Assembly (NCBI GenBank): GCA_026983795.1
Contig: JALSTI010000146.1
Span: 1 to 55,411, forward strand
Length of the DNA: 55,411 bases
Reading direction: 5' to 3'
From: Melioribacteraceae bacterium
GTDB lineage: Bacteria; Bacteroidota; Ignavibacteria; Ignavibacteriales; Melioribacteraceae
Part shown: one piece after another, positions 9,451 to 51,308 of the stretch
Layout: each line of letters begins with the position of its first letter
Position numbering within the stretch: position 1 is the stretch's first letter
Translations under genes and position numbers: made by a program
Notes under the pieces: generated by a model
Database searches by the model: none
Told to the model about the DNA's origin: nothing
The model's input: only the letters and a program-made list of their open reading frames with translations

Positions 9451-11517
9451 TTATCTTATCAATGGTGCAATAACAAAGGAAACCACCGATAATAATTTAA
9501 TCAAGATATTTAACGATGGTCCGGATGTATCTTTAAACGGATCGCCAACGGTATCGCCAACAACAGCAGCTTTATGTGCATCCGAACCTTTTTCGTATTT
9601 TTTTCCGTCAATTTCAATTCCGCGTTCAATTAATTTTTTTGCGTTATCCCATGCTCCGCCCGCATTTGCTTGAAAGACCGCCATTAAAACACCGCTTGCG
9701 GTTAATCCTGCTAAAAGTCCGGCAAGCATTTCTTTACTAAAATAACCGACTACAACGGGAACAAGTACCGCAACAACACCGGGAACTACCATTTCTTTTA
9801 TTGCTGCATCCGTCGAAATTTTTACGCATCGCGTATATTCGGCTTTAGCTTTACCTTCTCTTAAACCGGGGATTTCCCTAAATTGCCTTCCGACCTCTAA
9901 AATCATTTGTTTTGCGGCTCTACCGACTGCGCTCATTGCCATTGAAGAGAACAAAAACGGAAGCATAGCGCCTATAAACAGACCACCCATAATAATTGGT
10001 TTTGCAATATCGATAGTTTGAATACGGGCTTGGTGCATATAAGCGGAAAAAAGCGCAAGAGCCGTAAGAGCTGCAGAACCTATTGCAAAGCCTTTACCGA
10101 TTGCGGCGGTAGTATTTCCTACGGCGTCAAGTTTATCTGTCCTTTCTCTAACTTCAGGAGGTAATTCAGACATTTCCGCTATTCCTCCCGCGTTATCGGA
10201 AATCGGACCGTAAGCATCTACAGCTAATTGAATACCGGTAGTTGAAAGCATACCCAAAGCCGCAATACCGATTCCGTATAAATTGGCTAGCTCGTAAGCT
10301 CCGATTATTCCGGCTGAAATTATTAAAATCGGTAATGCCGTTGAAAGCATTCCCGTTCCTAAGCCTGCAATAATGTTAGTAGCAGCGCCGGTTACCGATT
10401 GCGATGCAATGTTAAAAACGGGTTTATAATCTGTTCCCGTGTAATATTCTGTAATAATTCCAATTAACACACCGGCTATAAGTCCGATAATTGTAGCAAA
10501 AAACACTCCGTTTGCCGTATAATTAAATCCTTCAAAAGTCCATTCCGAAGGAAGCATTGCACGGATGATAAAATACGATGAAATTATCATTAATCCCGCG
10601 GTAATAAATTCGCCTGTATTCAAAGCTTTTTGAGGATTTCCGCCTTCCCTTACTTTTACAAAGAAAGAACCGAAGACCGATAGAATTATTCCCGCTCCGG
10701 CTAAGACCAATGGAAGCAAAACACCTGCAAGACTGCTATCTTTTGGAAAAACTTCTGTGAAGACTGCTCCGAGTACCATTGAACCAATTGTTGCGCCAAC
10801 GTAAGATTCAAATAAATCGGCACCCATACCGGCAACATCGCCTACATTATCGCCAACATTATCTGCAATGGTTGCCGGATTTCTAGGATCATCTTCGGGA
10901 ATTCCTTCGTAAACTTTACCGGCCAAATCGGCTCCAACGTCGGCTGCTTTTGTATAAATTCCTCCGCCCACCCTTGCAAACAGAGCGATTGAAGAAGCGC
11001 CCAAAGAAAAACCGGAAAGTACATTTATTACTTTTGTAATATCCCAATCCAAATTGGAATAGATTAGGAATAAGGTTCCCAATCCTAAAATTCCCAGACC
11101 AACAACATTCATTCCCATTATTGAACCGCCTGAGAATGCAATTTCTAATGCCGGACCTAAACCTTTAATAGCGGCATTAGTTGTTTTAACATTAGATTTT
11201 GTTGCAGCCATCATACCCATAAAACCCGCAAGTGCGGAACAAAAAGCTCCTACTATAAATGATACTGCTATTAACCATGAAGAATCGGCGCGACCAAAAT
11301 TTGCAAATCCGAGCAGGATGCTAACAACAATAACAAAAATGATAAGAACTCTGTATTCGGCTTTAAGAAAAGCAACCGCTCCCTCATGGATATGTTGGGA
11401 AATTTCAACCATTTTTTCACTACCGCTTTCCTGCTTGTTTATCCAATTGTTTTTAAACAAGGAGTAAAGCAAGGCAACAATACCAAAAAAGGGGATGATG
11501 TAAATCAAGGATTCCAT
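9451..11517 (-). CDS. hppA: Membrane-bound ion-translocating pyrophosphatase (K+-dependent type signature)
   Basis: About 16 [66 protein letters not shown]. Confidence 0.96.
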
Positions 11518-28915: not shown

Positions 28916-30331
28916 TTATGAATTTTCTTTTTGATTTTCCCTATCGACAATTGCAGCAGTCAAATCTGCTTCTGCAACCAAATTGTTACCTACAAATGCC
29001 TTTGCTCTAATAACCACAACTTTGCTTTTTTTCCTTAACAATTCAGCTTCAATAACCAATTGGTCGCCCGGTACAACGGTCTTTCTGAACTTTGCATTGT
29101 TAATACCCATAAAGAAAACTAATTTAGTACTCGGATCGATATAACTGTTTAACATTAAAATACCGCCGGTTTGCGCCATAGCTTCAATAATTAAAACTCC
29201 CGGCATAATAGGTTGACCCGGGAAATGCCCTTGAAAAAACGGTTCGTTAACAGTTACGGATTTAATTCCGATAACTTTTTTATCCAACTCAAGATGAATT
29301 ATTTTATCTACAAGTAAAAAAGGATATCTGTGCGGGAGAATTTTTTGAATTGCTTGAATATCAAAAACAACGCCCTCTTTTTTAAGATGTTGATATTTTT
29401 TTACCAGTTTTTTCTGTTGATACAATTTTCTTATTTTTTTTGCAAACTCAACGTTTACTTTATGTCCGGGTCTTGCAGCCAGAAGTTGAGCTTTAATTGG
29501 AGCGCCAATTAAAGCCAAATCGCCAATCATATCAAGTAATTTATGCCGTACGGGTTCGTTTTTAAATCTTAAGGATTTTTCGTTTAGTATTCCGTTTTGT
29601 CCGATTGTAACTTCATCCGTGATGTTTAATTTTTCAGTAATTCGTTCTAGTTTTTCTTTTGGCATGTCATGATCGACAATAACGACGGCATTATCCAGAT
29701 TTCCGCCTTTAATAAGACCGGAGTCTATCAGATGCTCGACTTCGCTTAAAAAGCAAAAAGTTCTTGCCGGGGCAAACTCTTTTACAAATTCTTTTTCCAA
29801 ATCGAATAAACCCGTATGTTGACTGCCGAGCGCAGGGTTGTGATAATCTACCATAACGGTAATTCTGTATCCGTCCAACGGAAGGGCAACAATATCAACG
29901 TTTTCTTCTTCGTTGTGATACATTACGGTTTCGTCAATTATTAAATAATCCCGTGGTTCTTTTTGCGTAACGATGCCGGCTTCTTGAATTTTTTCAACGT
30001 AAGGCATTGCACTGCCGTCGCCTACGGGAGGTTCAATTCCGTCAAGTTCTATAATTATATTATCTATTTGCATGCCGTAAATTGCGGCGAGTACATGTTC
30101 AACGGTATAGACTTTTGTATCGCCAATACCGAGTGTGGTTCCGCGCGAAATATCTATTACGTATTCTGCGACGGCAGGAATTTCGGGGTTCCCGCCTAAA
30201 TCAACCCGCACGAATCGTATTCCGTAATTTTCAGGCGCCGGTTTAAATGTCATTGTGCACGAAGTGCCTGTGTGTAATCCTGTGCCGGAAAGCGATACAG
30301 CTTTTCCGATTGTTCTTTGACGTTCAAACAT
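28916..30331 (-). CDS. lpxC-fabZ: Bifunctional LpxC deacetylase / FabZ 3-hydroxyacyl-ACP dehydratase fusion
   Basis: LpxC half (RQRTIGKAVSLSGTGLHTGTSCTMTFKPAPENYGIRFVRVDL, HKLLDMIGDLALIGAPIKAQLLAARPGHKVN) then FabZ half (ILPHRYPFLLVDKI, NEPFFQGHFPGQPIMPGVLIIEAMAQ). Confidence 0.96.
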   Translation of the reverse strand: MFERQRTIGKAVSLSGTGLHTGTSCTMTFKPAPENYGIRFVRVDLGGNPEIPAVAEYVIDISRGTTLGIGDTKVYTVEHVLAAIYGMQIDNIIIELDGIEPPVGDGSAMPYVEKIQEAGIVTQKEPRDYLIIDETVMYHNEEENVDIVALPLDGYRITVMVDYHNPALGSQHTGLFDLEKEFVKEFAPARTFCFLSEVEHLIDSGLIKGGNLDNAVVIVDHDMPKEKLERITEKLNITDEVTIGQNGILNEKSLRFKNEPVRHKLLDMIGDLALIGAPIKAQLLAARPGHKVNVEFAKKIRKLYQQKKLVKKYQHLKKEGVVFDIQAIQKILPHRYPFLLVDKIIHLELDKKVIGIKSVTVNEPFFQGHFPGQPIMPGVLIIEAMAQTGGILMLNSYIDPSTKLVFFMGINNAKFRKTVVPGDQLVIEAELLRKKSKVVVIRAKAFVGNNLVAEADLTAAIVDRENQKENS

Positions 30332-31389
30332 TAAGTTAAATCCTTTTCTTTGTTATTCAATTGCTCAACTAATTCCGTAATTTTCTTTTCCAATGCTTTA
30401 ATTCTTTTGCTGTAATCGGGAAGATTTCTTATGTGGGATTCCAATCGGAGACTGGTAGACATTTCTTTTGCAGGGTATCCGAAATATTTCCCGGGTTTTT
30501 TAATTGATTTTGAAACGCCGGATTGTGCGCCAACAATAACGCCGTCGGTTAGCTCAATATGACCAACGGTACCGACTTGTCCGGCAAGAATACAATTTTT
30601 CCCTATTTTAGTGCTTCCGGAAACACCGCTTTGCGCGCTTATTACAGTATTATTGCCAATGCTAACGTTATGCGCTATTTGAATTAAATTATCTAATTTA
30701 ACGCCTTGTTTTATTACAGTAGATCCGATTGCCGCTCTATCTATTGCGACGTTTGCTCCAATTTCCACATCGTCCTCAATAACTACATTTCCTATTTGAG
30801 GTATTTTGTGGTAAACACCTTTATCATCGGTGGTATAACCGAATCCGTCCGATCCGATTACGGTTCCCGGATGTATAATTATTCTTTTACCCAGTTTGCA
30901 ATTTTCCCTAATGGTAACGTTAGGAAAAATAAGGCAGTCGTTTCCCACGGTTACGTTTTGCAGCAAAACACAATTATGGTAAATTTTAGTGTTATCTCCA
31001 ATTGTACAATTTTCCGAAATGACAACGTTTTTGCCTATAGCAACGTTCTTGCCGATTTTTGCGGAAGGGTGGATTGCAGCCGATTTATCTACGCCGGATA
31101 ATTGGAATTCCGGTTTAAAATATTTTTCGATTACTTTTTGAAAAGCAAGATTTGGATTGCCGACTTCTATATAAATTAAATCATTACGTATTTTTTTTTC
31201 TGAAGGTTTAATCAGAATGGCGCTGGCGTTTGTTGTTGCCAAATATTTGGAATATTTGGGAAGATATAAAAAAGTTAAGTCCCCGTTTTCGGCTTCTTCA
31301 ATTTTGGCAACATTACGGATAGATTCGTTTTCATTACCAACAACTTTACCGTCAACCAGATCGGCAATATCTTTAATTAAAATGTTCAT
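30331..31389 (-). CDS. lpxD: UDP-3-O-acylglucosamine N-acyltransferase
   Basis: IHPSAKIGKNVAIGKNVVISENCTIGD hexapeptides; HPGTVIGSDGFGYTTDDKGVYHKIPQIGNVVIEDDVEIGANVAIDRAAIGSTVI. Confidence 0.95.
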   Translation of the reverse strand: MNILIKDIADLVDGKVVGNENESIRNVAKIEEAENGDLTFLYLPKYSKYLATTNASAILIKPSEKKIRNDLIYIEVGNPNLAFQKVIEKYFKPEFQLSGVDKSAAIHPSAKIGKNVAIGKNVVISENCTIGDNTKIYHNCVLLQNVTVGNDCLIFPNVTIRENCKLGKRIIIHPGTVIGSDGFGYTTDDKGVYHKIPQIGNVVIEDDVEIGANVAIDRAAIGSTVIKQGVKLDNLIQIAHNVSIGNNTVISAQSGVSGSTKIGKNCILAGQVGTVGHIELTDGVIVGAQSGVSKSIKKPGKYFGYPAKEMSTSLRLESHIRNLPDYSKRIKALEKKITELVEQLNNKEKDLT

Positions 31390-32596: not shown

Positions 32597-35083
32597 TTAA
32601 AAACCTCTTCCAAATTGGAAATGAAATACCCATTGCGGATCTTGACCATCGACACTTCTTCTGTCGAATCCATATCCATAATCAAATCCGATTAAGCCAA
32701 TGGGATTAATTAAAATTCTTGCGCCAACTCCCACCGAACGTCTTAAGTTCAATAAATTTGCGCTGTTTAAATCCAAAAATGTATTACCGGCTTCGGCAAA
32801 GGCCAAAACGTATAAAGGCATTGGTTCCAAAGTTATTGCGGCGCGTATTTCAGCGGTATATTTTGCCATTACTCTGCCCCCAATTATATCGCCGTTTGTA
32901 TTTCGCGGTCCTACGCTTCTATCTTCATATCCTCTAAGGGGAGTGGTTGCAATTACCAATCCGTTACCGCCCATAAAGAAAAATTCGAACGGTTGAATGT
33001 TAGTGCCCGAAACAATTTCATGAATATAACCTAAATCCAAACTTGTAAAAAAGGTTATACGGGAAGAATGAAATAATCTTCTGTACCATTCGGTACTGAA
33101 TTGAATTTTGTAATAATCAACATCGCCGGGTAAAATAGGTCCGCCGGAGAGTTCCGCATTCAAATTAATTTTAGAACCCGTTGAAGGGAAAATCGGATTA
33201 TCAATATCTGTTCTTGAAATAGTTGCGCCTAAAGTATATTGGCGTGAAATTCCTTCGTTATAAAAATTTCTTCCGTCTATTACGTCGTTATATTGAAACC
33301 TGAGCATTCCTTGAACGTAAAATCTGTCATCCGGCCAAGTAAGTCTTCTTCCCAGTTTAAGAGAAAGACCCGATTGGCGTAAATCATATATAAATCTTTG
33401 GCGCGTATCAAACGCATTAACGCCAATTAAAGTAGGCGTATCTAAAAACCAAGGTTCAGTAAATCCCAGGCTGAAAGTTCTGTAAAAATTTCCGACTCCG
33501 AATTGCCAGCTAAAATCCAAACGCTGTCCGCCGCCTAAAACAAAAGGTTTGGGAAGATAAAAGTTAGAGAGTGTTACTCCAATCGATCCGCTAAAACCGA
33601 ACGCTCCGCTATAACCGACTGAGGCATTTAAATAATCGCTGGATTTTTCTTCTACTTTATAAATTAGATTTACCGTACTGTCGCTAGCCGGTTTAAAATC
33701 GACGCCTTCTTTATACAATTGTTCAACATTAAAATATTTCAAATTAGCCAATTGTTGAATACTGCGGAAAACATTACTTCTTCTAAAATAATCGCCCGGA
33801 ACAGTAAACAATTCTCTCCGGATAACTTTGTCCATTGTTCTGTCGTTTCCCGTTATTTCAACTTTATCGATTTTAAATTGATTGTTTTCGGTCACTTTTA
33901 TATAAACGTCAATCGAATCGTCGGCAACTTTCTTTTCGGAAACTTCCTGATTAAAACGGAGAAAACCGTTATCCATATATAACGAAGCGACGTCGTTTTG
34001 CGTTTTATTGCCGTATAAATTTTGTGTAAATCTTTCGTAATCGTAAATATCGCCTTTTTTGAAGTCCAATCTTGCATTTAACTCTTTATCGCTGTAAACA
34101 GAATTTCCTTCCCAAATTATATTTCTTATTTTGTATTGCGGACCTTCGTAAACGGTAATTAAAATATCGACCAGCGATTTATTTTTATTAAAAATTAAAG
34201 TATCGCCTAAAATTTCAAAATCCCGGTAACCGTTTTTTCTGTAAAAGTCTCTAAGTAAATCCTCGTCCTTTTTGAAGTCTTCCTCTTTGAAATTTGCGCT
34301 ACTCCAAAATCTCCACCAACGGTCTTCCTTGGTTTCGTCGAATTCGGATTTTAGATCGTCATCGTCAAAAGCTTTATTTCCGATAAAAGATATTTTGTGA
34401 ACGACCACTTCATCGCCTTCGTTTATATTAAAAACGAGCAGCTTTCTGTCCTTTATTCTACGAATAATATTTGAATGTATATCCGGATTGTAATCGTATT
34501 CCGTGGTTCTTTCAACCGATAAGTCCTTGTCGTTCCGCCAAGTTACGGTAATTGTATTGTCGTTTGTGTCGGCATCGAAAAAGGAATAAAGCTCGGGAGT
34601 AATTTTTGCATTCAGATATCCTTCGTCTTCGTACATTTTTTTTATTTTTACTTGAGCTTCTTTAACATCTTGGGGTTTAAGAGTTTGACCTTTTACAATT
34701 GGAATTTCTTTTATAATATCTTCTTCGTCCAACTCATCGTTTCCCGTAACTTGAATATCTTCAACTCTTTTTAATTCTTCTACTTTTATTAAAAGAAAAA
34801 CCCCGTTACCTATTTTTTTATCGATAATTATTTGTATATCGTTAAAAATTCCTAGGTTCCACAACCGTTTGATTGCATTATTTGTAGCGTCTCCGGGAAT
34901 TTCGAGCTCATTACCGACTTTAAGTCCGCTGTTTGCAATAATAGTAGTGGCGTCTGCCGTTTTGTTGCCTTCCACCGATATTCCTAAAATCTTATAGTTT
35001 ACTTTGCTTAATTGCGCATAGTTAAGATTAAAGGAAATAAAAAGTAGAATGAAGATTTTATACAAATTCTTTGCTGAGATCAT
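32597..35083 (-). CDS. bamA: Outer membrane protein assembly factor BamA
   Basis: POTRA repeats (GVFLLIKVEELKRVEDIQVTGNDELDEEDI...) and Omp85 barrel (RTDIDNPIFPSTGSKINLNAELSGG, PLRGYEDRSVGP, IGFDYGYGFDR...WVFHFQFGRGF). Confidence 0.96.
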   Translation of the reverse strand: MISAKNLYKIFILLFISFNLNYAQLSKVNYKILGISVEGNKTADATTIIANSGLKVGNELEIPGDATNNAIKRLWNLGIFNDIQIIIDKKIGNGVFLLIKVEELKRVEDIQVTGNDELDEEDIIKEIPIVKGQTLKPQDVKEAQVKIKKMYEDEGYLNAKITPELYSFFDADTNDNTITVTWRNDKDLSVERTTEYDYNPDIHSNIIRRIKDRKLLVFNINEGDEVVVHKISFIGNKAFDDDDLKSEFDETKEDRWWRFWSSANFKEEDFKKDEDLLRDFYRKNGYRDFEILGDTLIFNKNKSLVDILITVYEGPQYKIRNIIWEGNSVYSDKELNARLDFKKGDIYDYERFTQNLYGNKTQNDVASLYMDNGFLRFNQEVSEKKVADDSIDVYIKVTENNQFKIDKVEITGNDRTMDKVIRRELFTVPGDYFRRSNVFRSIQQLANLKYFNVEQLYKEGVDFKPASDSTVNLIYKVEEKSSDYLNASVGYSGAFGFSGSIGVTLSNFYLPKPFVLGGGQRLDFSWQFGVGNFYRTFSLGFTEPWFLDTPTLIGVNAFDTRQRFIYDLRQSGLSLKLGRRLTWPDDRFYVQGMLRFQYNDVIDGRNFYNEGISRQYTLGATISRTDIDNPIFPSTGSKINLNAELSGGPILPGDVDYYKIQFSTEWYRRLFHSSRITFFTSLDLGYIHEIVSGTNIQPFEFFFMGGNGLVIATTPLRGYEDRSVGPRNTNGDIIGGRVMAKYTAEIRAAITLEPMPLYVLAFAEAGNTFLDLNSANLLNLRRSVGVGARILINPIGLIGFDYGYGFDRRSVDGQDPQWVFHFQFGRGF

Positions 35084-41078: not shown

Positions 41079-42419
41079 ATGTCTGAATATACAAACCGCA
41101 TTGTTGAACTTGTAAAAGCGAAAAATCCCAGTGAACCCGAATTCCATCAAGCTGTTCAAGAAGTTACCGAATCGTTGGATTTGGTATTCCAACGTCATCC
41201 GGAATATCAAGCCGCAAGAATTTTGGAAAGAATGGTTGAGCCCGAACGCGTTATCATTTTCAGAGTGCCGTGGATGGACGACCAAGGAGATTTTCATATT
41301 AACCGTGGTTACCGCATTGAAATGAACAGCGCAATAGGTCCGTATAAAGGCGGACTCAGATTCCACCCTTCGGTAACAATGGGGATATTAAAATTTTTAG
41401 CGTTTGAACAGGTATTTAAAAATAGTTTAACAACATTACCTATGGGCGGCGGTAAAGGAGGATCGGATTTTAATCCGAAAGGGAAAAGCGATAATGAAAT
41501 AATGAGATTTTGCCAGAGTTTTATGACCGAACTTTTCCGCCATATTGGTCCCAATACCGATGTTCCCGCCGGCGATATTGGTGTTGGTACGCGTGAAATC
41601 GGATATTTATTCGGGCAATATAAAAGGCTTAAAAATGAATTTACCGGAGTTTTAACAGGTAAAGGATTAAACTGGGGAGGTTCGTTAATCCGGCCCGAAG
41701 CCACTGGTTTTGGTGTGGTTTATTTTACCGAAGAAATGCTGAAAACCAAGGGAATGACAATTGAAGGCAAAACCGTTGCTCTTTCAGGTTTTGGTAATGT
41801 AGCTTGGGGAGCTGTTCAAAAAATAAACGAATTGGGCGGAAAAGTTGTTACTTTATCCGGTCCCGATGGTTATATCTACGATCCGGATGGTGTTAAAGGA
41901 GAAAAAATTGAGTATATGCTTAAATTACGTGCAAGTAATAAAGACGCAGTTGAAGATTATGCTTCGGAATTCGGAGTACAGTTTTTCCCGGATAAAAAAC
42001 CCTGGGAAGTTAAAGCCGATATTGCCATTCCATGCGCAACTCAAAATGAAATTTATCCCGAAGACGCAAAAACATTAATAGATAACGGCTGCGTTGCAGT
42101 TTGTGAAGCCGCAAATATGCCTACAACTTTGGAAGCTTATCATTTGTTTAAAGAAGCGGGAATATTATTCGGTCCTGCTAAAGCGGCTAATGCAGGTGGA
42201 GTTGCAACATCGGGACTTGAAATGGCTCAAAACAGTATGAGATTGCCTTGGTCATCCGAAGAAGTGGATAAAAGACTTCATGAAATTATGGTTAGAATTC
42301 ATAACACTTGTTTGGAAACTGCCGATAGGTTCGGAAGCCAGGGAAATTACGTTGACGGTGCAAATATAGCCGGATTCTTAAAAGTAGCCGATGCAATGAT
42401 TGATCAAGGTCTTGTTTAG
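41079..42419 (+). CDS. gdhA: Hexameric glutamate dehydrogenase, NAD-type coenzyme fingerprint
   Basis: PMGGGKGGSDFNPKGKSDNEIMRFCQSFMTELFRHIGPNTDVPAGDIGVG; Rossmann motif LSGFGNVAWG and LSGPDGYIYDPDG. Confidence 0.95.
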   Translation: MSEYTNRIVELVKAKNPSEPEFHQAVQEVTESLDLVFQRHPEYQAARILERMVEPERVIIFRVPWMDDQGDFHINRGYRIEMNSAIGPYKGGLRFHPSVTMGILKFLAFEQVFKNSLTTLPMGGGKGGSDFNPKGKSDNEIMRFCQSFMTELFRHIGPNTDVPAGDIGVGTREIGYLFGQYKRLKNEFTGVLTGKGLNWGGSLIRPEATGFGVVYFTEEMLKTKGMTIEGKTVALSGFGNVAWGAVQKINELGGKVVTLSGPDGYIYDPDGVKGEKIEYMLKLRASNKDAVEDYASEFGVQFFPDKKPWEVKADIAIPCATQNEIYPEDAKTLIDNGCVAVCEAANMPTTLEAYHLFKEAGILFGPAKAANAGGVATSGLEMAQNSMRLPWSSEEVDKRLHEIMVRIHNTCLETADRFGSQGNYVDGANIAGFLKVADAMIDQGLV

Positions 42420-42458
42420 TAAAACATAACATTGTTATGAATTTGAAACGTCAATTTT

Positions 42459-45452
42459 ATGAATGATGAAAATATAGAGATTAAATTCGAAAGCGTTTAT
42501 AGAAGCAGAATAAGAAAATTTCAGAAGCTGATGCGCTTTAAAATACGGGATATTCTTCTCGTCTCCAGCTTGTATGATAATTATTTATTCGAAGAAGACG
42601 GCAGACTTTACGAATTAATCAGAGAAGAATATCACACGCTTAATTTAAGTCACTCACCCGAAATTACTCACGTTACTACTTCAAGAGAAGCAATAGAACT
42701 TATTCAACAAGAAAATCAATTTGATTTGATTTTAACCACAATGCACATTGAAGATATGCCCGTTTTGAATTTTGTGCAGGAAATTAAAGCCTTCGGAGTA
42801 AAAATTCCCATAATTCTACTTGCCTACGATAATGAAGAAAGAAAGGAGATGGCTAACAATCCAAAAGCGTCCATTTTCGATATGATTTTTATTTGGCAAG
42901 GCGATTACAGGCTTTTAATGGGAATCATAAAATCGGTTGAGGATAAACTTAATGTTAAAAACGATACGAAAACAATCGGCGTGCAAGTTATAATTCTGGT
43001 TGAAGACGATGTTAAATTTTACTCGGCTTATTTACCTCTGATTTATACGGAAATTTTTAAACAGTCACAGCGGCTTATTTCCGAAGGAGTAAACGCATCA
43101 CACCGGTTTTTAAGAATGCGAGCAAGACCTAAAATTATTTTGTGTACAACTTACGAAGAGGCTTGGAATTATTTCAACCAATACAAATCCAATATCCTTG
43201 GCGTAATTTCAGATATAAATTTTCTTCACAACGGAGTAAAAGACCCGGAAGCCGGAATTAAATTGGCAAAAGCAATAAAATCGGAAATGATGGATATCCC
43301 TATCCTCCTTCAATCAACTCAAGAAGAATTAAGGAGCACCGCCGATAAACTTGGAGTATCTTTCTTAAAAAAAGATTCTCCCCGGCTGTTAAATGAATTA
43401 AGAAAATTCATGATCGAACATTTCGGATTCGGAGATTTTATATTTAAAACTTCGGAAGGCCATCCCGTTGGTCATGCATCTAATTTACGTGAATTTGCCG
43501 AACAACTATCCAAAGTTCCCGACGAATCAATATTGTACCATTCCAGAAGAAATCATTTTTCAACCTGGTTAAAAGCAAGAACGGAATTTTGGCTGGCAAA
43601 TAAATTGCGTCCCCGTAAAGTATCCGATTTTAACTCTGTAGTGGATCTAAGAAACGAATTGATTTCCAGCGTTACGGATTATATAAATTTTCAACAATTA
43701 GGTTCTATAACCGAATTTAATAAAGAAACTTTCGATCCTAAAAACAGTTTTGCAAAAATCGGTTACGGGTCTCTTGGCGGTAAGGCGCGCGGACTCGGTT
43801 TTATCAATAATTTAATTAACAACTTCAACTTAAATTTTGCTTCCAAAGGCGTTGATATTTACGTCCCTTCGGCAATTGTATTGGCTACGGATATTTACGA
43901 TAAATTTATTGAAGAAAATGATCTTTTCGATTTTGCCATTAATGAAACTGATGATCAAAAAATATTGGAAAGATTTGTTTTTGCCGAAAAGTTTCCCAGC
44001 GAAGTAATTCTTAAATTAATTGACTTTTTGCACATTGTAAAAGAACCGCTTGCCGTAAGAAGTTCCAGTTTGTTGGAAGATTCCCAATTTCAACCTTTTG
44101 CCGGTGTTTATGAAACATTTATGATATCCAACAACGATGAGGATCCCGAAGAGAGATTGGAAGAATTGCTTTTAAGTATAAAAGCGGTTTATGCTTCTAC
44201 TTTTTTGAAAAAAGCCAAAGATTATCTCCAAGCCACTTCTTACAGATTGGAAGAAGAGAAAATGGCGGTTATTATACAAAAATTAGTCGGAAGTAAATAC
44301 GAAGAAAGATTTTATCCCGTTATTTCCGGCGTTGCAAAGTCATATAACTTTTATCCCGTTCCCCCGCAAAAAGCAACCGACGGTATTGCTTTGATTGCTT
44401 TAGGTCTTGGAAAAACAGTGGTGGAGGGGGGCAATACTGTAAGGTTTTGTCCTAAATTTCCAAAACATTTAATTCAATTTTATTCCACAAAAGAAACCCT
44501 GAAAAACACCCAACAAAAATTTTATGCTCTCAATTTATCATCGGAATTTTCTATCGAAACAATAGATCAACTCGAGGGAATGGTTCAAAGTTACGATTTA
44601 AGCTATGCTGAAAAAGACGGAACGTTGTACAATGTAGGCTCAACTTACTCTCCGCAGAATAATGCAATTTACGATGGAATTTCACGTGACGGAATGCGGC
44701 TTGTAACATTTGCGCCGATTTTAAAGCATAATATTTTTCCTCTGCCCGAAATTTTGGATACTTTGCTGAAGTATGGCGCTTGGGGAATGGGAACTCAAGT
44801 GGAAATTGAATTTGCGGCTAATAATTCCGAAAAGGGTAAACCGATTGACGAGTTTGCCATGTTGCAAATGCGCCCGATGGTTCTTTCCAGGGAATCTGCC
44901 GATATTGATTTTTCCAATTTGAGCAACGATGATTTGATTGCCAAAAGTAATATAGTTTTGGGAGACGGAATAATTGAAGACATTTATAACATTGTAACTA
45001 TTGATAAAGAAAAATTTGACAGGGCAAAAAGTAAAGCGGCTGCCGAAGAAATTTCTCAAATAAATTCTAAATTGCGCAATTCCAACACTAAATTTATTTT
45101 AATAGGATTGGGAAGATGGGGCAGCCTCGATCCCTGGCTTGGCATTCCTGTTACCTGGGATCAAATTTCAATGGCTGCGGTTATTGTTGAAGCGGGATTT
45201 GAAGATATTGAAGTCGATCCTTCCCAAGGCTCACACTTTTTTCACAACATTACGGCTTTCAGAATCGGATATTTTACTATCAGAAATACAAATAAAGATA
45301 CTTTTGTAGATTGGAATTGGTTGGCAAAACAGCAGCCGGAAGAAGAACTGAATTTTGTTAAACATCTAAAATTCGAAAAACCTATAATTACTAAAATCAG
45401 CGGAAGACAAAACGAAGGAGTAATTATTAAACCAGGAAAGGAAGCTTTTTAA
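42459..45452 (+). CDS. Receiver-domain + PEP/pyruvate-binding (PPDK N-terminal ATP-grasp-like) protein, copy 1
   Basis: Two receiver-like domains (DLILTTMHIEDM; VIILVEDD...ILGVISDI...FLKKDSP), then GSLGGKARGLGF, PLAVRSSSLLEDSQFQPFAGVYETF, EKMAVIIQKLVG, GLGRWGSLDPWLGIPV. Confidence 0.85.
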   Translation: MNDENIEIKFESVYRSRIRKFQKLMRFKIRDILLVSSLYDNYLFEEDGRLYELIREEYHTLNLSHSPEITHVTTSREAIELIQQENQFDLILTTMHIEDMPVLNFVQEIKAFGVKIPIILLAYDNEERKEMANNPKASIFDMIFIWQGDYRLLMGIIKSVEDKLNVKNDTKTIGVQVIILVEDDVKFYSAYLPLIYTEIFKQSQRLISEGVNASHRFLRMRARPKIILCTTYEEAWNYFNQYKSNILGVISDINFLHNGVKDPEAGIKLAKAIKSEMMDIPILLQSTQEELRSTADKLGVSFLKKDSPRLLNELRKFMIEHFGFGDFIFKTSEGHPVGHASNLREFAEQLSKVPDESILYHSRRNHFSTWLKARTEFWLANKLRPRKVSDFNSVVDLRNELISSVTDYINFQQLGSITEFNKETFDPKNSFAKIGYGSLGGKARGLGFINNLINNFNLNFASKGVDIYVPSAIVLATDIYDKFIEENDLFDFAINETDDQKILERFVFAEKFPSEVILKLIDFLHIVKEPLAVRSSSLLEDSQFQPFAGVYETFMISNNDEDPEERLEELLLSIKAVYASTFLKKAKDYLQATSYRLEEEKMAVIIQKLVGSKYEERFYPVISGVAKSYNFYPVPPQKATDGIALIALGLGKTVVEGGNTVRFCPKFPKHLIQFYSTKETLKNTQQKFYALNLSSEFSIETIDQLEGMVQSYDLSYAEKDGTLYNVGSTYSPQNNAIYDGISRDGMRLVTFAPILKHNIFPLPEILDTLLKYGAWGMGTQVEIEFAANNSEKGKPIDEFAMLQMRPMVLSRESADIDFSNLSNDDLIAKSNIVLGDGIIEDIYNIVTIDKEKFDRAKSKAAAEEISQINSKLRNSNTKFILIGLGRWGSLDPWLGIPVTWDQISMAAVIVEAGFEDIEVDPSQGSHFFHNITAFRIGYFTIRNTNKDTFVDWNWLAKQQPEEELNFVKHLKFEKPIITKISGRQNEGVIIKPGKEAF

Positions 45453-45510
45453 GCTGAATAAATAATAACAAAATAATTTTGGATATCTCACAAAAATAAG
45501 GAGAAACACA

Positions 45511-46872
45511 ATGTCACAGTATGTTCAAGATTTGATGTCAATGGTAAAAGCAAAAAACCCAAACGAACCTGAATTCCATCAAGCTGTTCTTGAAGTGGCA
45601 GAATCTTTGGATGTGGTTTTGGAAAAACATCCTGAATACAGAGCCGCAAAAATATTGGAGAGAATGGTTGAACCCGAAAGGGTAATAGAATTTAGAGTTC
45701 CTTGGGTTGATGAAGAAGGTGAAATTCATATCAACCGCGGTTACAGAATTGAAATGAATAGTGCGATTGGTCCTTACAAAGGCGGATTAAGATTTCACCC
45801 TTCCGTAAACCGAAGCATTCTGAAATTTTTAGCTTTCGAACAAGTATTCAAAAACAGTTTAACCTCGTTGCCTATGGGCGGCGGAAAAGGCGGATCTGAT
45901 TTTGATCCTAAAGGTAAAAGCGACCTTAAAGTAATGAGGTTTACTCAGCAATTTATGAGCGAATTGTTCCGTCATATTGGTCCTAATACCGACGTTCCCG
46001 CCGGCGATATTGGCGTTGGCGGTAGGGAAATAGGCTATTTGTTTGGTCAATATAAAAAATTAAGAAATGAATTCTCCGGCGTTCTTACCGGTAAAGGATT
46101 AAATTGGGGAGGTTCCTTAATAAGACCCGAAGCAACCGGTTACGGAAGCGTTTATTTCGCATCGGAAATGCTGGCAACAAGAGGAGAAACGTTGGAAGGC
46201 AAAATATGTTTGGTATCCGGCAGCGGAAACGTAGCCCAATATACCGTAGAAAAAATTAACCAATTAGGCGGTAAAGTTGTTACTTTATCAGATTCCAATG
46301 GTTATGTTTACGACGAAGAGGGAATTGATGCCGAAAAATTGGCTTACGTAATGGAATTGAAAAATGTTAGACGCGGAAGAATTAAAGAATATGCCGAAAA
46401 ATATCCTAATGCGGTTTATACTCCGGTAGATCCCAATCTCGATTATAATCCTTTATGGAATCATAAAGCAGATTGCGCTTTCCCGTCCGCTACGCAAAAC
46501 GAAATAAACGGTAAAGATGCTCAACATTTACTGGATAACGGAGTTTTTGTGGTTAGTGAAGGTGCTAATATGCCCACAACATTGGACGGCGTTCAATTGT
46601 TCCTGGATAAGGGAATCCTTTACGGTCCGGCAAAAGCCGCAAATGCCGGCGGCGTGGCGGTTTCCGGCTTGGAAATGTCTCAAAACAGTATGAGGTTAAA
46701 CTGGACAAGAGAAGAAGTGGATAAACGATTACATGGAATTATGAAAAATATTCATAAAACATGCGTTGATATGGCTGAAAGATTCGGAATGCCGGGAAAT
46801 TATGTGGCAGGCGCAAATATAGGCGGTTTCTTAAAAGTTGCCGACGCAATGATGGATCAAGGCGTTGTTTAA
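45511..46872 (+). CDS. gdhA: Hexameric glutamate dehydrogenase, NADP-type coenzyme fingerprint
   Basis: PMGGGKGGSDFDPKGKSDLKVMRFTQQFMSELFRHIGPNTDVPAGDIGVGGREIGYLFGQYK; VSGSGNVAQYTVEK and LSDSNGYVYDEEG. Confidence 0.95.
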   Translation: MSQYVQDLMSMVKAKNPNEPEFHQAVLEVAESLDVVLEKHPEYRAAKILERMVEPERVIEFRVPWVDEEGEIHINRGYRIEMNSAIGPYKGGLRFHPSVNRSILKFLAFEQVFKNSLTSLPMGGGKGGSDFDPKGKSDLKVMRFTQQFMSELFRHIGPNTDVPAGDIGVGGREIGYLFGQYKKLRNEFSGVLTGKGLNWGGSLIRPEATGYGSVYFASEMLATRGETLEGKICLVSGSGNVAQYTVEKINQLGGKVVTLSDSNGYVYDEEGIDAEKLAYVMELKNVRRGRIKEYAEKYPNAVYTPVDPNLDYNPLWNHKADCAFPSATQNEINGKDAQHLLDNGVFVVSEGANMPTTLDGVQLFLDKGILYGPAKAANAGGVAVSGLEMSQNSMRLNWTREEVDKRLHGIMKNIHKTCVDMAERFGMPGNYVAGANIGGFLKVADAMMDQGVV

Positions 46873-46889
46873 TTAAGCCGTTTTATCTC

Positions 46890-46917
46890 AAACTCCCGCT
46901 CGCCCGGGCGGGAGTTT
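46890..46917 (+). terminator. Rho-independent terminator after the second gdhA
   Basis: AAACTCCCGC-N8-GCGGGAGTTT 10-bp stem followed by CTTTTT. Confidence 0.88.
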
Positions 46918-47035
46918 CTTTTTACTGTTTCTTATCTTCTCTTTTTTAATTTCTTCAATTTTACTTACTTTAATGAAAGGAATTTATTTCGTCTGAGAAT
47001 TTATCAATCTCTCATTTTTTTCGGAGAATACAAAA

Positions 47036-50011
47036 GTGAAACTTTCCAGTTGGGTAGAAGAAGGATTCGATAAAAAGGCATTGCCGTTTCAAAACTTAAT
47101 GCGGTTTAGAATTCGCGATATCCTTCTTGTTTCAAGTTTATATGATTTGTATTTGTTTGAAGAAGACGGCAGATTATATGAATTGTTAAGACACGAATAC
47201 CGCGATTTGCAATTAAGTCATACACCCGAAATTACGCGTGTATCTACCGCAAAAAAAGCTATTCAACTTGCTAAAGAAGAAAAAAGATTCGACCTTATAA
47301 TTACCACTCTTCATATTGAAGATATGGACGCAATACGCTTTGCCGAAAAAGTTAAAAGCTCCGGATTGAATATTCCTATTGTGCTGCTTACCCACAACAA
47401 AAAAGAATTAAATCATTTAATGGTAAGCCGCAACATTCACATTTTTGATAACGTGTTTATGTGGCAAGGAGATTTTAGAATAATTATCGCAATTATCAAA
47501 TCCATTGAAGATAAACTTAATGTTGACCACGACACAAATATTGTGGGCGTGCAAACCATAATTTTAATTGAAGACGATGTTCAATATTACTCTTCCTTTT
47601 TGCCTTTAATTTATACGGAATTATTCAATCAAGCCCGGCGTTTAATTTCCGAAGGCGTAAATTTGTCTCATAAATATTTAAGAATGAGGGCTCGACCCAA
47701 AATTCTTTTAAGCAACGATTATGAAACCGCATGGAAATATTACAAAAAATACAAAGAATATTGCTTGGGAATAGTTTCTGATATCGCTTTTCCTTATAAA
47801 AAGCAAATTCATCCTAAAGCGGGAATAAAATTTGCCAAAAATATTAAAGCTGATCAACCCGATTTACCAATTCTGCTCCTTTCGAACGATGAAAGCAATA
47901 AAGCCGATGCCGAAAAAGTAAACAGTTCATTTATTCTCAAAAATTCGCCTTTACTGCTTGAACAGTTAAGAGATTTTATGTATGAATATTTCAGTTTCGG
48001 AGATTTTATTTTCCGGAAAGCCGATGGTACGGAAGTAGGAAGAGCGCACGATTTAAAATCTTTGCAAGAACAACTTAAAGTGGTTCCGGACGAAAGTATA
48101 ATTTACCATGCATCCCGCAATCATTTCTCTAATTGGTTAAAAGCACGTACCGAATTCAGATTAGCTCATAAATTACGCCCCAGAAAAGTATCGGATTATA
48201 AGGATGTAACCGAACTCCGGTACGATTTAATAAATTCAATTGAAAATTATAAGAAGCAAAGGAAAAAAGGACTTATAACCGATTTTGATAAAGATAATTT
48301 TGATCCGCAAACAGGCTTTGCCAGAGTAGGAACAGGTTCTTTAGGCGGTAAAGCACGCGGTTTGGGTTTTTTAAATGCGTTAATAAGCGATTACGAATTG
48401 GATACAAAATTTGAAAATGTTAGAATTTTTGTGCCTCCGGGTATTGTAGTTGCAACCGGCGTTTACGATAGTTTTTTGGAATTAAATAATTTGAGAAAAT
48501 TTGCCATTAATTGTGACGACGATGAAGAAATAACACGGAAATTTTTAAAAGCGGAACATTTTCCCCACGAAATTATTAGCAGTCTGGCTTCTTTCCTTGA
48601 ATTAATCGATACGCCGCTTGCGGTACGCTCATCAAGTCTTTTGGAAGATTCTCAATATCATCCGTTTGCCGGAGTTTATGAAACATATATGTTGCCAAAT
48701 AATAATTCCAATCCTTTAATCAGATTAAATGAATTATTGATAACCATTAAAAAAATATATGCCTCAACATTTTACAATAGGGCAAAGGAATATCTGAAAA
48801 TTACATCTTACCGGTTGGAAGAAGAAAAAATGGCTGTCATTATTCAAAAACTTGTAGGTAAAAAGCATGAAAACCGTTTTTATCCCGAAATCTCCGGAGT
48901 TGCAAAATCGTATAACTTTTATCCGGTTAAACCGCAAAAATCCCACGACGGTATTGTAGGCATTGCGCTTGGTCTTGGCAAAACCGTTGTAGACGGCGGG
49001 AATTGCTTAAGATTTTGCCCAAAATATCCTAACGATACGCTTCAATTTAATACTATAAAAGATACATTGGATAGTTCGCAAACTAAATTTTTTGCTCTTA
49101 AATTAGACGGGGAAGTTGATCTTGAAGTTCAAACCCACGATTTACTTTTAGAGGAATACGATTTGTCCGTTGCCGAAAAAGACGGCGTTTTGAATTATGT
49201 GGGATCAACTTACTCAATAGAAAACGATATAATTTACGACGGAACAAGCAGAAACGGAATTAGAGTTGTAACTTTTGCCCCAATTTTGAAACATAAAATT
49301 TTTCCTCTTCCGGAAATTGTAAATTTTTTGCTCGAAATGAGCAGCTGGGGTATGGGTACGCCGGTCGAAATTGAATTTGCGGTTAATTTGGCTAACAGAA
49401 ACCATCCTAAAAATGACTTCGGGGTTGTACAAGTTAGACCTATTGTAATAAACGAAGAACTTGAGAATTTAAAAATCGATTTTACCGAACATAAAAAACT
49501 GCTTTGCCAAAGCGATCAGGTTTTAGGACACGGAATAATTAACGATATTTACGATATAGTTTATGTGGATCAAAAAAAATTCGATCGTTCTAAAACAAGA
49601 GAAATTGCACAGGAAATAAGTCAATACAACTCAAAACTAAATTCCCGTAATAAACCTTATTTGTTAATAGGAATGGGAAGATGGGGTTCGTTAGACCCGT
49701 GGCTCGGTATTCCGGTTGTGTGGGATCAAATCTCAGGCGCAAAAGTAATTGTCGAATCCGATTTTAAAGATATGATAGTAAAACCTTCGCAAGGTTCACA
49801 CTTTTTCCATAACATTACTTCGTTAATGATTGGTTATTTTACCGTTTCTAATTTGAATGATAAAAGTTTTCTTGATTTTGAATGGCTGGATTCCTTAGAA
49901 ACAAAAGACCAAAAAAAATATTGTAAACATTTTGAGTTTCATGAACCGTTAGTTGTTAAAATTAACGGTAGAAAAAACAAAGGAATTATTATTAAACCCG
50001 GCATGGAATAA
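47036..50011 (+). CDS. Receiver-domain + PEP/pyruvate-binding (PPDK N-terminal ATP-grasp-like) protein, copy 2
   Basis: Colinear paralogue of 42459..45452: DLIITTLHIEDMD, IILIEDD, LGIVSDIAF, GSLGGKARGLGF, PLAVRSSSLLEDSQYHPFAGVYETYM, GMGRWGSLDPWLGIPV, PSQGSHFFHNIT. Confidence 0.85.
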   Translation: MKLSSWVEEGFDKKALPFQNLMRFRIRDILLVSSLYDLYLFEEDGRLYELLRHEYRDLQLSHTPEITRVSTAKKAIQLAKEEKRFDLIITTLHIEDMDAIRFAEKVKSSGLNIPIVLLTHNKKELNHLMVSRNIHIFDNVFMWQGDFRIIIAIIKSIEDKLNVDHDTNIVGVQTIILIEDDVQYYSSFLPLIYTELFNQARRLISEGVNLSHKYLRMRARPKILLSNDYETAWKYYKKYKEYCLGIVSDIAFPYKKQIHPKAGIKFAKNIKADQPDLPILLLSNDESNKADAEKVNSSFILKNSPLLLEQLRDFMYEYFSFGDFIFRKADGTEVGRAHDLKSLQEQLKVVPDESIIYHASRNHFSNWLKARTEFRLAHKLRPRKVSDYKDVTELRYDLINSIENYKKQRKKGLITDFDKDNFDPQTGFARVGTGSLGGKARGLGFLNALISDYELDTKFENVRIFVPPGIVVATGVYDSFLELNNLRKFAINCDDDEEITRKFLKAEHFPHEIISSLASFLELIDTPLAVRSSSLLEDSQYHPFAGVYETYMLPNNNSNPLIRLNELLITIKKIYASTFYNRAKEYLKITSYRLEEEKMAVIIQKLVGKKHENRFYPEISGVAKSYNFYPVKPQKSHDGIVGIALGLGKTVVDGGNCLRFCPKYPNDTLQFNTIKDTLDSSQTKFFALKLDGEVDLEVQTHDLLLEEYDLSVAEKDGVLNYVGSTYSIENDIIYDGTSRNGIRVVTFAPILKHKIFPLPEIVNFLLEMSSWGMGTPVEIEFAVNLANRNHPKNDFGVVQVRPIVINEELENLKIDFTEHKKLLCQSDQVLGHGIINDIYDIVYVDQKKFDRSKTREIAQEISQYNSKLNSRNKPYLLIGMGRWGSLDPWLGIPVVWDQISGAKVIVESDFKDMIVKPSQGSHFFHNITSLMIGYFTVSNLNDKSFLDFEWLDSLETKDQKKYCKHFEFHEPLVVKINGRKNKGIIIKPGME

Positions 50012-50081
50012 CCGGGTTGAATTGAAACTGTTAACGAAAAAAATTAAATTGTATTAACTATTTATCAAAAAAGGTGATAAT

Positions 50082-51308
50082 ATGAACACGAATGAAATTG
50101 CTCCCGCAGTAAGAACAAAAAACATAACTTATGCCGTACGGGATGTATTATTAATAGCAAACGAAGTAGCCAAAACCGGCAAAGAAATGCTTTATTTGAA
50201 TATTGGAGATCCTAATATTTTCGATTTTGCAACACCGAGACCAATGATTGAAGCAAGCTATAAAGCAATGTTGGAAAATAAAAACGGTTACGGACCATCC
50301 TCGGGTATTGAACCCGCCAGGGAATCGATAGCGCGCGAAGCCGAAAGAAAAGGAATTAAAAACATTCAAGATATTTTTGTTACCACCGGCGCAAGCGAAG
50401 CCATTGATATTTGTTTAACGGCGCTTGTTAATCAAGGCGAAAATATTTTAACTCCAACTCCCGGTTATCCTTTATACACGGCTATTCAAAGTAAATTACA
50501 AATGGTTGAAAATCCTTACTACTTAAACGAAAGCAACGGTTGGCAGCCGGATATTGAAGATATAAAAAGTAAAATAAATGAAAAAACCAGAGCGATTATT
50601 GTAATTAATCCTAACAATCCCACTGGGTCCAATAGTACTCCGGAAACGCTAAAACAAATAATCGATTTGGCTCTTGAGCATAATTTGGTAATTTTTGCCG
50701 ATGAGATTTACGATAAATTATTGATGGACGGAGAGTCGCATACGTCTTTAGCCTCATTGAATTCGGAAGTTCCCGTTATTACATTCGGCGGATTGTCTAA
50801 AAACTATTTAGCTCCCGGTTTTAGAATAGGCTGGGGAATTATGAGCGGGAATAGATCGGTTCTTAAAAATTATATAGAAGCAATTAATAAAATTTTACGT
50901 TCGCGTCTTTCGGCTAATCACCCTATTCAATATTCAATTCCTGTTGCGCTGGACGGTGATCAAAGCCATCTTGAAGAAGTTGTTCAAAAATTAACAAAAC
51001 GAAGAAATTTAACGATGGAAATGCTCAACGCAATTCCCGGTATTACATGCGAAGCGCCGAGAGGAGCATTTTACGCTTTCCCAAGGTTACATATAAATAA
51101 TTCCGATTCTCATTTTGTTGCCGAATTAATTAAAGAAACCGGAGTTGTGGTTGTTCCGGGCAGTGGATTCGGTCAAGTGCCCGGCACGCAGCATTTTAGA
51201 GTGGTTTTCTTACCTCCGGAAGAAATATTGGAAAAAGCTTACAAAAGTATAGGCAGCTTTTTTGAGAAATATGTGGAAAAATTTGAAAAAGCCGGCACAA
51301 ATGTCTAA
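50082..51308 (+). CDS. PLP-dependent class I/II aminotransferase (AlaA/aspartate-aminotransferase-like)
   Basis: YLNIGDPNIFDF, VTTGASEAIDICLTAL, INPNNPTGSN, FADEIYDKLLMDG, TFGGLSKNYLAPGFRIGWG. Confidence 0.92.
   Translation: MNTNEIAPAVRTKNITYAVRDVLLIANEVAKTGKEMLYLNIGDPNIFDFATPRPMIEASYKAMLENKNGYGPSSGIEPARESIAREAERKGIKNIQDIFVTTGASEAIDICLTALVNQGENILTPTPGYPLYTAIQSKLQMVENPYYLNESNGWQPDIEDIKSKINEKTRAIIVINPNNPTGSNSTPETLKQIIDLALEHNLVIFADEIYDKLLMDGESHTSLASLNSEVPVITFGGLSKNYLAPGFRIGWGIMSGNRSVLKNYIEAINKILRSRLSANHPIQYSIPVALDGDQSHLEEVVQKLTKRRNLTMEMLNAIPGITCEAPRGAFYAFPRLHINNSDSHFVAELIKETGVVVVPGSGFGQVPGTQHFRVVFLPPEEILEKAYKSIGSFFEKYVEKFEKAGTNV

Follow-up and report, generated by a model that had tools for sequence, protein, structure and literature searches.

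Why should two genes for glutamate dehydrogenase (GDH) stand in tandem, each followed by a gene for a large protein with receiver and ATP-grasp domains? The question is raised by a stretch of DNA of 55,411 nucleotides from a Melioribacteraceae bacterium (contig JALSTI010000146.1 of assembly GCA_026983795.1), here called the window, in which gdh1, partner A, gdh2, partner B and an aminotransferase gene were found by open reading frame (ORF) calling to be consecutive and all on the + strand. We propose, with a probability of roughly 0.6, that partners A and B (RPA and RPB) would be dedicated, signal-gated, ATP-using post-translational regulators of their cognate GDHs, partner A of the NAD-type GDH1 and partner B of the NADP-type GDH2. 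Five features of the family, read from sequence comparison, argue for this: the partner-GDH pairing, co-divergence within the window's class, pairing by coenzyme class, conserved sites, and the missing domains of phosphoenolpyruvate (PEP) synthases. The elements of the locus (41079-51308) are:

41079-42419, + strand: GDH1, 446 aa, family I hexameric glutamate dehydrogenase with an NAD-type coenzyme fingerprint.
42459-45452, + strand: partner A, 997 aa, a degenerate first receiver (Rec1), a second receiver (Rec2), a linker/DUF5752-like region, a PPDK_N ATP-grasp domain and an orphan C-terminal domain.
45511-46872, + strand: GDH2, 453 aa, family I hexameric glutamate dehydrogenase with an NADP-type coenzyme fingerprint.
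46890-46917, + strand: strong terminator-like hairpin between GDH2 and partner B, a 12 bp stem followed by CTTTTT.
47036-50011, + strand: partner B, 991 aa, architecture as in partner A, with a GTG start behind GGAG.
50082-51308, + strand: class I/II aminotransferase (Pfam), adjoining partner B in several family members.

The ORFs and the Pfam matches bear out the gene order that the initial annotation of the window had given (gdhA, partner, gdhA, partner, aminotransferase, on the + strand). Spacers of approximately 40 bp (gdh1/partner A) and 60 bp (partner A/gdh2) link the first three genes, and because a hairpin follows gdh2, partner B may be expressed separately from gdh2 or be held below the GDH2 level. 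Alignment showed GDH1 and GDH2 to be 69% identical over their full length, so that the duplication stands and the earlier restriction of the similarity to about the first 150 residues does not. The 2 partners, with 58% identity across 975 aa, are thus colinear from end to end, as had been claimed. A search of the source genome found neither a third partner copy nor a further close GDH besides GDH1 and GDH2.

Both GDHs contain the ELFV_dehydrog and ELFV_dehydrog_N domains (Pfam) and have intact catalytic Lys/Asp motifs. The coenzyme segment of GDH1, SGFGNVAWGA...TLSGPDGYI, is of NAD type and is common to the group of 1bgv/1hrd, the nearest solved structures, of which a near-identical entry, 1aup, carries the label NAD-specific. 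In GDH2 this segment is SGSGNVAQYT...TLSDSNGYV, of NADP type, and the nearest solved structure, 5ijz, is an NADP-specific GDH. Judged by these fingerprints, GDH1 is an NAD-type and GDH2 an NADP-type enzyme, and the former is probably catabolic and the latter assimilatory.

Is the association of partner and GDH a property of the family or of this array? We surveyed 396 genomes of the phylum and 149 genomes of one order, with their gene neighbourhoods; the order was assigned as Bacteroidales from the sequence neighbours Parabacteroides, Phocaeicola and Prevotella. (A single-sequence scan of genome contigs had returned two close relatives only, and a tblastn search of plasmids with the C-terminal domain gave matches only in Bacteroidales.) Of 118 full-length homologues, in which one locus (L004/L091) enters twice, 79 have a GDH gene at most 700 bp away and 86 at most 4 kb away, so most homologues are linked to gdhA. 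At least 4 gene orientations occur. In the window's class, GDH precedes the partner on one strand; it is divergent from the long form of the Bacteroidales, follows the partner on its strand in others, and is convergent with it at two Bacteroidaceae-like loci. These several orientations indicate that the linkage is not a single frozen operon. The aminotransferase family is present at 16 loci of the survey.

Copy numbers point the same way. In the window's class, 48 genomes have both a partner and a family I GDH, none has the partner only and 2 have the GDH only. In a test that counts related genomes as independent, copy numbers are equal in 47/50 of these genomes (shuffle mean 30, maximum 41) and in 88/149 Bacteroidales (shuffle mean 57, maximum 75 in 5,000 shuffles). 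Each of 18 Bacteroidales genomes with an unlinked partner keeps at least one GDH. In a Bacteroides-like genus, one partner is present in 29/31 genomes, with an NAD-type gdh within 3 kb in 19 of the 29, and this single partner stands alongside two GDHs. The proposal that each large protein has its own GDH thus agrees well with the window's class and many Bacteroidales, and less well with this genus. At one further locus (L173, G236:C1:2087000-2101000), two near-identical GDH1-type genes lie 3.7 kb apart and the sole partner is approximately 660 kb away.

The partners also sort by the type of GDH beside them. In the window's class, 15 pairs join partner A to a GDH1-type enzyme, 29 join partner B to a GDH2-type enzyme, and 2 join partner B to a GDH1-type enzyme (Fisher p 2.7e-10). 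In both of these exceptions (L072 and L087), it looks as if the middle of a tandem array, partner A and GDH2, was lost. Scored by coenzyme class, partner A is paired with an NAD-type GDH in 15/16 cases, partner B with an NADP-type GDH in 28/31, and the Bacteroidales long form with an NADP-type GDH in 15/18. In trees, the Bacteroidales have two partner forms of their own, separate from partners A and B, and the shorter one pairs mainly with NAD-type GDHs. Bacteroidales partners of approximately 1,150 to 1,200 aa (L129, L132, L137 and others) are longer by roughly 200 residues at the N-terminus, a stretch that Pfam does not convincingly match, and are mostly divergent beside an NADP-type gdh; two copies reach approximately 1,410 aa (L163 and L170).

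This sorting bears on whether the partner could instead be a metabolic enzyme of the same pathway, its ATP-grasp domain phosphorylating a small molecule (such as a substrate or product of GDH, or an amino acid further along the pathway) under control of the receivers while GDH itself is left untouched. Relatives of PPDK_N with known functions do mostly use small molecules (PEP synthase, PPDK, rifampin phosphotransferase, PigC), and an aminotransferase gene frequently adjoins the partner. NAD- and NADP-type GDHs have the same substrates and products save the coenzyme, and separate partners for each therefore suggest recognition of the enzyme protein; distinct paralogues for the two types in both clades are hard to explain by shared metabolites. 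Moreover, the partner copy number tracks that of GDH, and the His and PEP/pyruvate domains of the small-molecule enzymes were not found in the partners. We consider a metabolic role of this kind unlikely.

Comparison of the GDH and partner trees gave a divided answer to the expected co-divergence. Within the window's class both the pairing and the co-divergence were found: the pairs of this class form one clade in each tree, which indicates that the pair was duplicated there as a unit. Over 78 pairs, partner and GDH distances correlate with r 0.845, to which the species tree contributes. In two flavobacteria-like genomes, a Bacteroidales-type partner lies beside an NAD-type GDH that itself groups with Bacteroidales GDHs, as if partner and GDH had been transferred together.

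These observations also address whether the linkage is merely inherited gene order without function, the tandem array being an ordinary segmental duplication. The array does clearly come from duplication of a pair, and the main pairs of the window's class all have one order. Against this, the linkage persists in several orientations across the Bacteroidales and the window's class, co-transfer into the flavobacteria-like genomes looks likely, genomes with an unlinked partner retain GDH, mostly in equal number, and the core of the partners also accompanies a third, unrelated type of GDH. Gene order without function is hence a very improbable explanation.

This third type, an archaeal-type GDH, is approximately 30% identical to GDH1, and proteins with an ATP-grasp and C-terminal core follow it at 23/26 loci; at one of the three exceptional loci, the contig stops before the position of the gene. 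One companion, of 580 aa, consists of the ATP-grasp and C-terminal domains without receivers. Another, of 1,060 aa, has an N-terminal region, the ATP-grasp domain, the C-terminal domain and a nucleotidyltransferase domain that in most copies bears a GSx10DxD-like motif, and at some loci it is the only companion present. The ATP-grasp and C-terminal core is therefore common to the partners of all three GDH types. At one locus (L071, G035:C7:138500-152500), genes for the archaeal-type GDH, GDH2, partner B, the 580-aa protein and the 1,060-aa nucleotidyltransferase protein lie on one strand between 0.3 and 11.7 kb, the archaeal-type module and the GDH2-partner B pair being nested in a single cluster.

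To understand what the partners might do, we aligned 68 homologues, from which both residue conservation and an AlphaFold2 model of partner A (mean pLDDT, the predicted local distance difference test, 86) were obtained. Pfam identified Response_reg, DUF5752 and PPDK_N in both partners. The domains of partner A are:

42540-42968, + strand: Rec1, residues ~28-170, pseudo-receiver with T93/T94 at the phospho-Asp position (Response_reg match 61-142).
42978-43424, + strand: Rec2, residues ~174-322, full receiver with D183, D252 (phospho-acceptor), S286 and K305.
43764-44891, + strand: PPDK_N/ATP-grasp domain, residues ~436-811, with K442, R534, E540-D541, E782/E784, Q803 and R805.
44892-45449, + strand: C-terminal domain, residues 812-997, with invariant G885-R-W-G, D891 and S922-x-G-[ST]-H926-F-F.

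The N-terminal part resembles the tandem receivers of PleD (Foldseek). The ATP-grasp half of the name "receiver-ATP-grasp protein" given in the initial annotation was retained, and its single receiver became two by Foldseek and alignment. No conserved Asp is present at the phospho-acceptor site of Rec1 in the alignment. Rec2 has every element of a receiver (acid pair, phospho-Asp, Thr/Ser and Lys), with D252, S286 and K305 conserved in 68/68 homologues and D183 in 67/68. The PPDK_N matches are strong (E 1.7e-35 and 5.4e-38); K442, R534, E540, D541, E782, E784 and Q803 are invariant in 68/68 sequences, and position 805 has R in 58 sequences and K in the other 10. Structurally, this domain matches HpeI and PPDK (Foldseek), and the nearest solved sequences are of the rifampin-phosphotransferase type, deposited as phosphoenolpyruvate synthase (best PDB match 5hv6). 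GLGK is found in 62/68 homologues at the site of GLGE, which we take to be the PEP synthase motif there. The DUF5752 match (PF19027) is weak: it scores 23.5 and 27.6 bits where the cut-off is 23, over less than half of the profile, and it falls under the cut-off in two Bacteroidales long-form partners.

The C-terminal domain (186 residues) was modelled as an independent, confident fold (AlphaFold2 pLDDT 92, predicted template modelling score 0.90). Pfam gave no match for it, nor did Foldseek against the PDB at E<=0.001. The order of its strands and helices, with an invariant His where a helix begins, suggested the phospho-His swivel domain of PEP utilisers (PF00391). Neither Pfam nor Foldseek at E<=0.001 matched that domain in the partners, and alignment of the C-terminal domain with PEP-utiliser His domains by hhalign, in which some too-short template rows were dropped, gave E 0.14 over an unrelated stretch; a divergent phospho-His domain is unsupported by all three methods. 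The PEP/pyruvate-binding barrel likewise has no Pfam match, and the partner ends 186 residues past PPDK_N. With the His and PEP/pyruvate domains absent, the partners are not PEP synthases or PPDKs despite their automatic annotation, and this identity was rejected. Identity as a transcription regulator was rejected as well, since Pfam found no DNA-binding domain in the partners.

The same residues speak to the idea that the partner is a scaffold or pseudo-enzyme, in which nucleotide binding senses the energy state and controls GDH allosterically without ATP turnover or phosphoryl transfer. The degenerate first receiver, GLGK in place of GLGE and the missing His domain would all fit, and an ATP site alone suffices for ligand sensing. 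The invariance of K442, R534, E782/E784 and Q803 in 68 diverse homologues goes beyond what scaffolding needs, and we regard a purely structural or sensing role as likewise unlikely.

How the partners, as signal-gated regulators, might then act can be outlined. The signal would arrive as phosphorylation of D252 in Rec2, and phosphorylated Rec2 would gate the ATP-grasp domain, which is of the PPDK/PEP-synthase N-terminal type. This domain and the orphan C-terminal domain would then activate or modify the cognate GDH, possibly by phosphoryl transfer via the invariant H926 or directly onto GDH. Candidate modes are direct phosphorylation, adenylylation, assembly help and pure allostery. The choice of GDH as the target, the gating by the receiver and the chemistry itself are inferred. 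In several relatives (L037-L042, e.g. L039:9322-11397), genes for a histidine kinase (PAS-HisKA_3) and a regulator of LuxR type lie between those of partner A and GDH2, and are a possible source of the signal; neither was seen in the cluster of the window's own GDH-partner pairs.

Several findings weigh against the proposed regulation. The deep branching order of the partner clades disagrees with that of the GDH clades, and shared ancestry of the genomes enters both the distance correlation and the copy-number test. Most flavobacteria-like genomes carry GDH without a partner, GDH occurs without a partner in 15/149 Bacteroidales and the partner without GDH in 5/149, and numerous shorter-form Bacteroidales partners are not adjacent to gdh. 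By this distribution, many family I GDHs work partner-free. The role given to H926 is a guess: fold search, Pfam and profile alignment all failed to connect the C-terminal domain with PEP-utiliser His domains. Altogether, partner and GDH are strongly associated, and the functional link between them put forward in the initial annotation now draws support from neighbourhoods, tree pairing and co-divergence, copy numbers and coenzyme-class pairing, and its mode of action stays inferential.

Does any known system have this form? PEP synthase and PPDK (PF01326, PF00391 and the PEP-utiliser C domain) share with the partners the ATP-grasp nucleotide domain and its K, R, E, Q and R motif residues; the partners differ in having no detected phospho-His swivel or PEP/pyruvate barrel, and add two receivers, the orphan C-terminal domain and the gdh linkage. 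Enzymes of the rifampin phosphotransferase type (PDB 5hv6 and 5fbs) and PigC resemble the partners in reusing a PPDK_N-type ATP-grasp domain for another acceptor, but they are not known to have receivers or a GDH partner, and retain the His swivel domain and small-molecule acceptors. PorX and PleD, both matched in Foldseek, likewise fuse receivers, in tandem in PleD, to an enzyme-like output rather than to DNA binding; their outputs are PglZ and GGDEF rather than ATP-grasp, and they have no known GDH association. AceK (isocitrate dehydrogenase kinase/phosphatase) and the PPDK regulatory proteins are dedicated modifiers encoded beside the single enzyme that they control, and by analogy the partners most likely resemble them in role. 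Their folds are, as far as known, unrelated to those of the partners. GarA and OdhI are phospho-signal-dependent proteins that control NAD-type GDHs; they are FHA-domain proteins that act by binding, on another GDH class, and have no known ATP-grasp domain.

We found no description of a receiver/ATP-grasp partner of GDH in the open-access literature, which lacks most subscription papers. Neither DUF5752 nor a link between GDH and a pyruvate-binding-domain protein was found to be treated there, and the names BT_1970, BT_1971 and gdhX led to no relevant paper. The statement in the initial annotation that no GDH-controlling system of this form has been described thus agrees with the open literature, with one possible precedent: according to its title, a paper on Bacteroides thetaiotaomicron places trans-acting gene(s) with an effect on GDH activity downstream of gdhA (Baggio & Morrison 1996, as cited in the references of PMC4539542). 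The species belongs to the same phylum, the gene(s) named in the title are near gdhA, and the Bacteroides-like genus sampled here has a partner near its gdh genes; the trans-acting gene may be the partner or another gene near gdh. Among the known kinds of system, none couples a GDH to a protein with receiver and ATP-grasp domains.

Elsewhere in the window, the - strand encodes a membrane H+-pumping inorganic pyrophosphatase (9451-11517, PF03030) and an LpxC-FabZ-like fusion as well as LpxD (28916-31389); an Omp85/POTRA protein lies close by (32597-35083), and these are genes of lipid A and outer-membrane assembly.

GDH joins carbon and nitrogen metabolism, and its control in gut and environmental Bacteroidota is poorly understood. 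More broadly, we tentatively suggest an undescribed class of protein modifiers, built from a PEP-synthase-type ATP-grasp domain and the orphan C-terminal domain, that would control GDHs post-translationally across the Bacteroidota, with versions for NAD-, NADP- and archaeal-type enzymes and with sensory parts that seem interchangeable (a receiver pair in some, no such part in others, and in still others an N-terminal region with a nucleotidyltransferase domain). If the partner is a GDH regulator, the family whose members currently go by the names "PEP/pyruvate-binding domain-containing protein" or "phosphoenolpyruvate synthase" would gain a testable function, the PEP-synthase ATP-grasp fold would have a new use together with a domain without known structural relatives, and most Bacteroidales, including common gut commensals, would hold an uncharacterised layer of control on ammonia assimilation.

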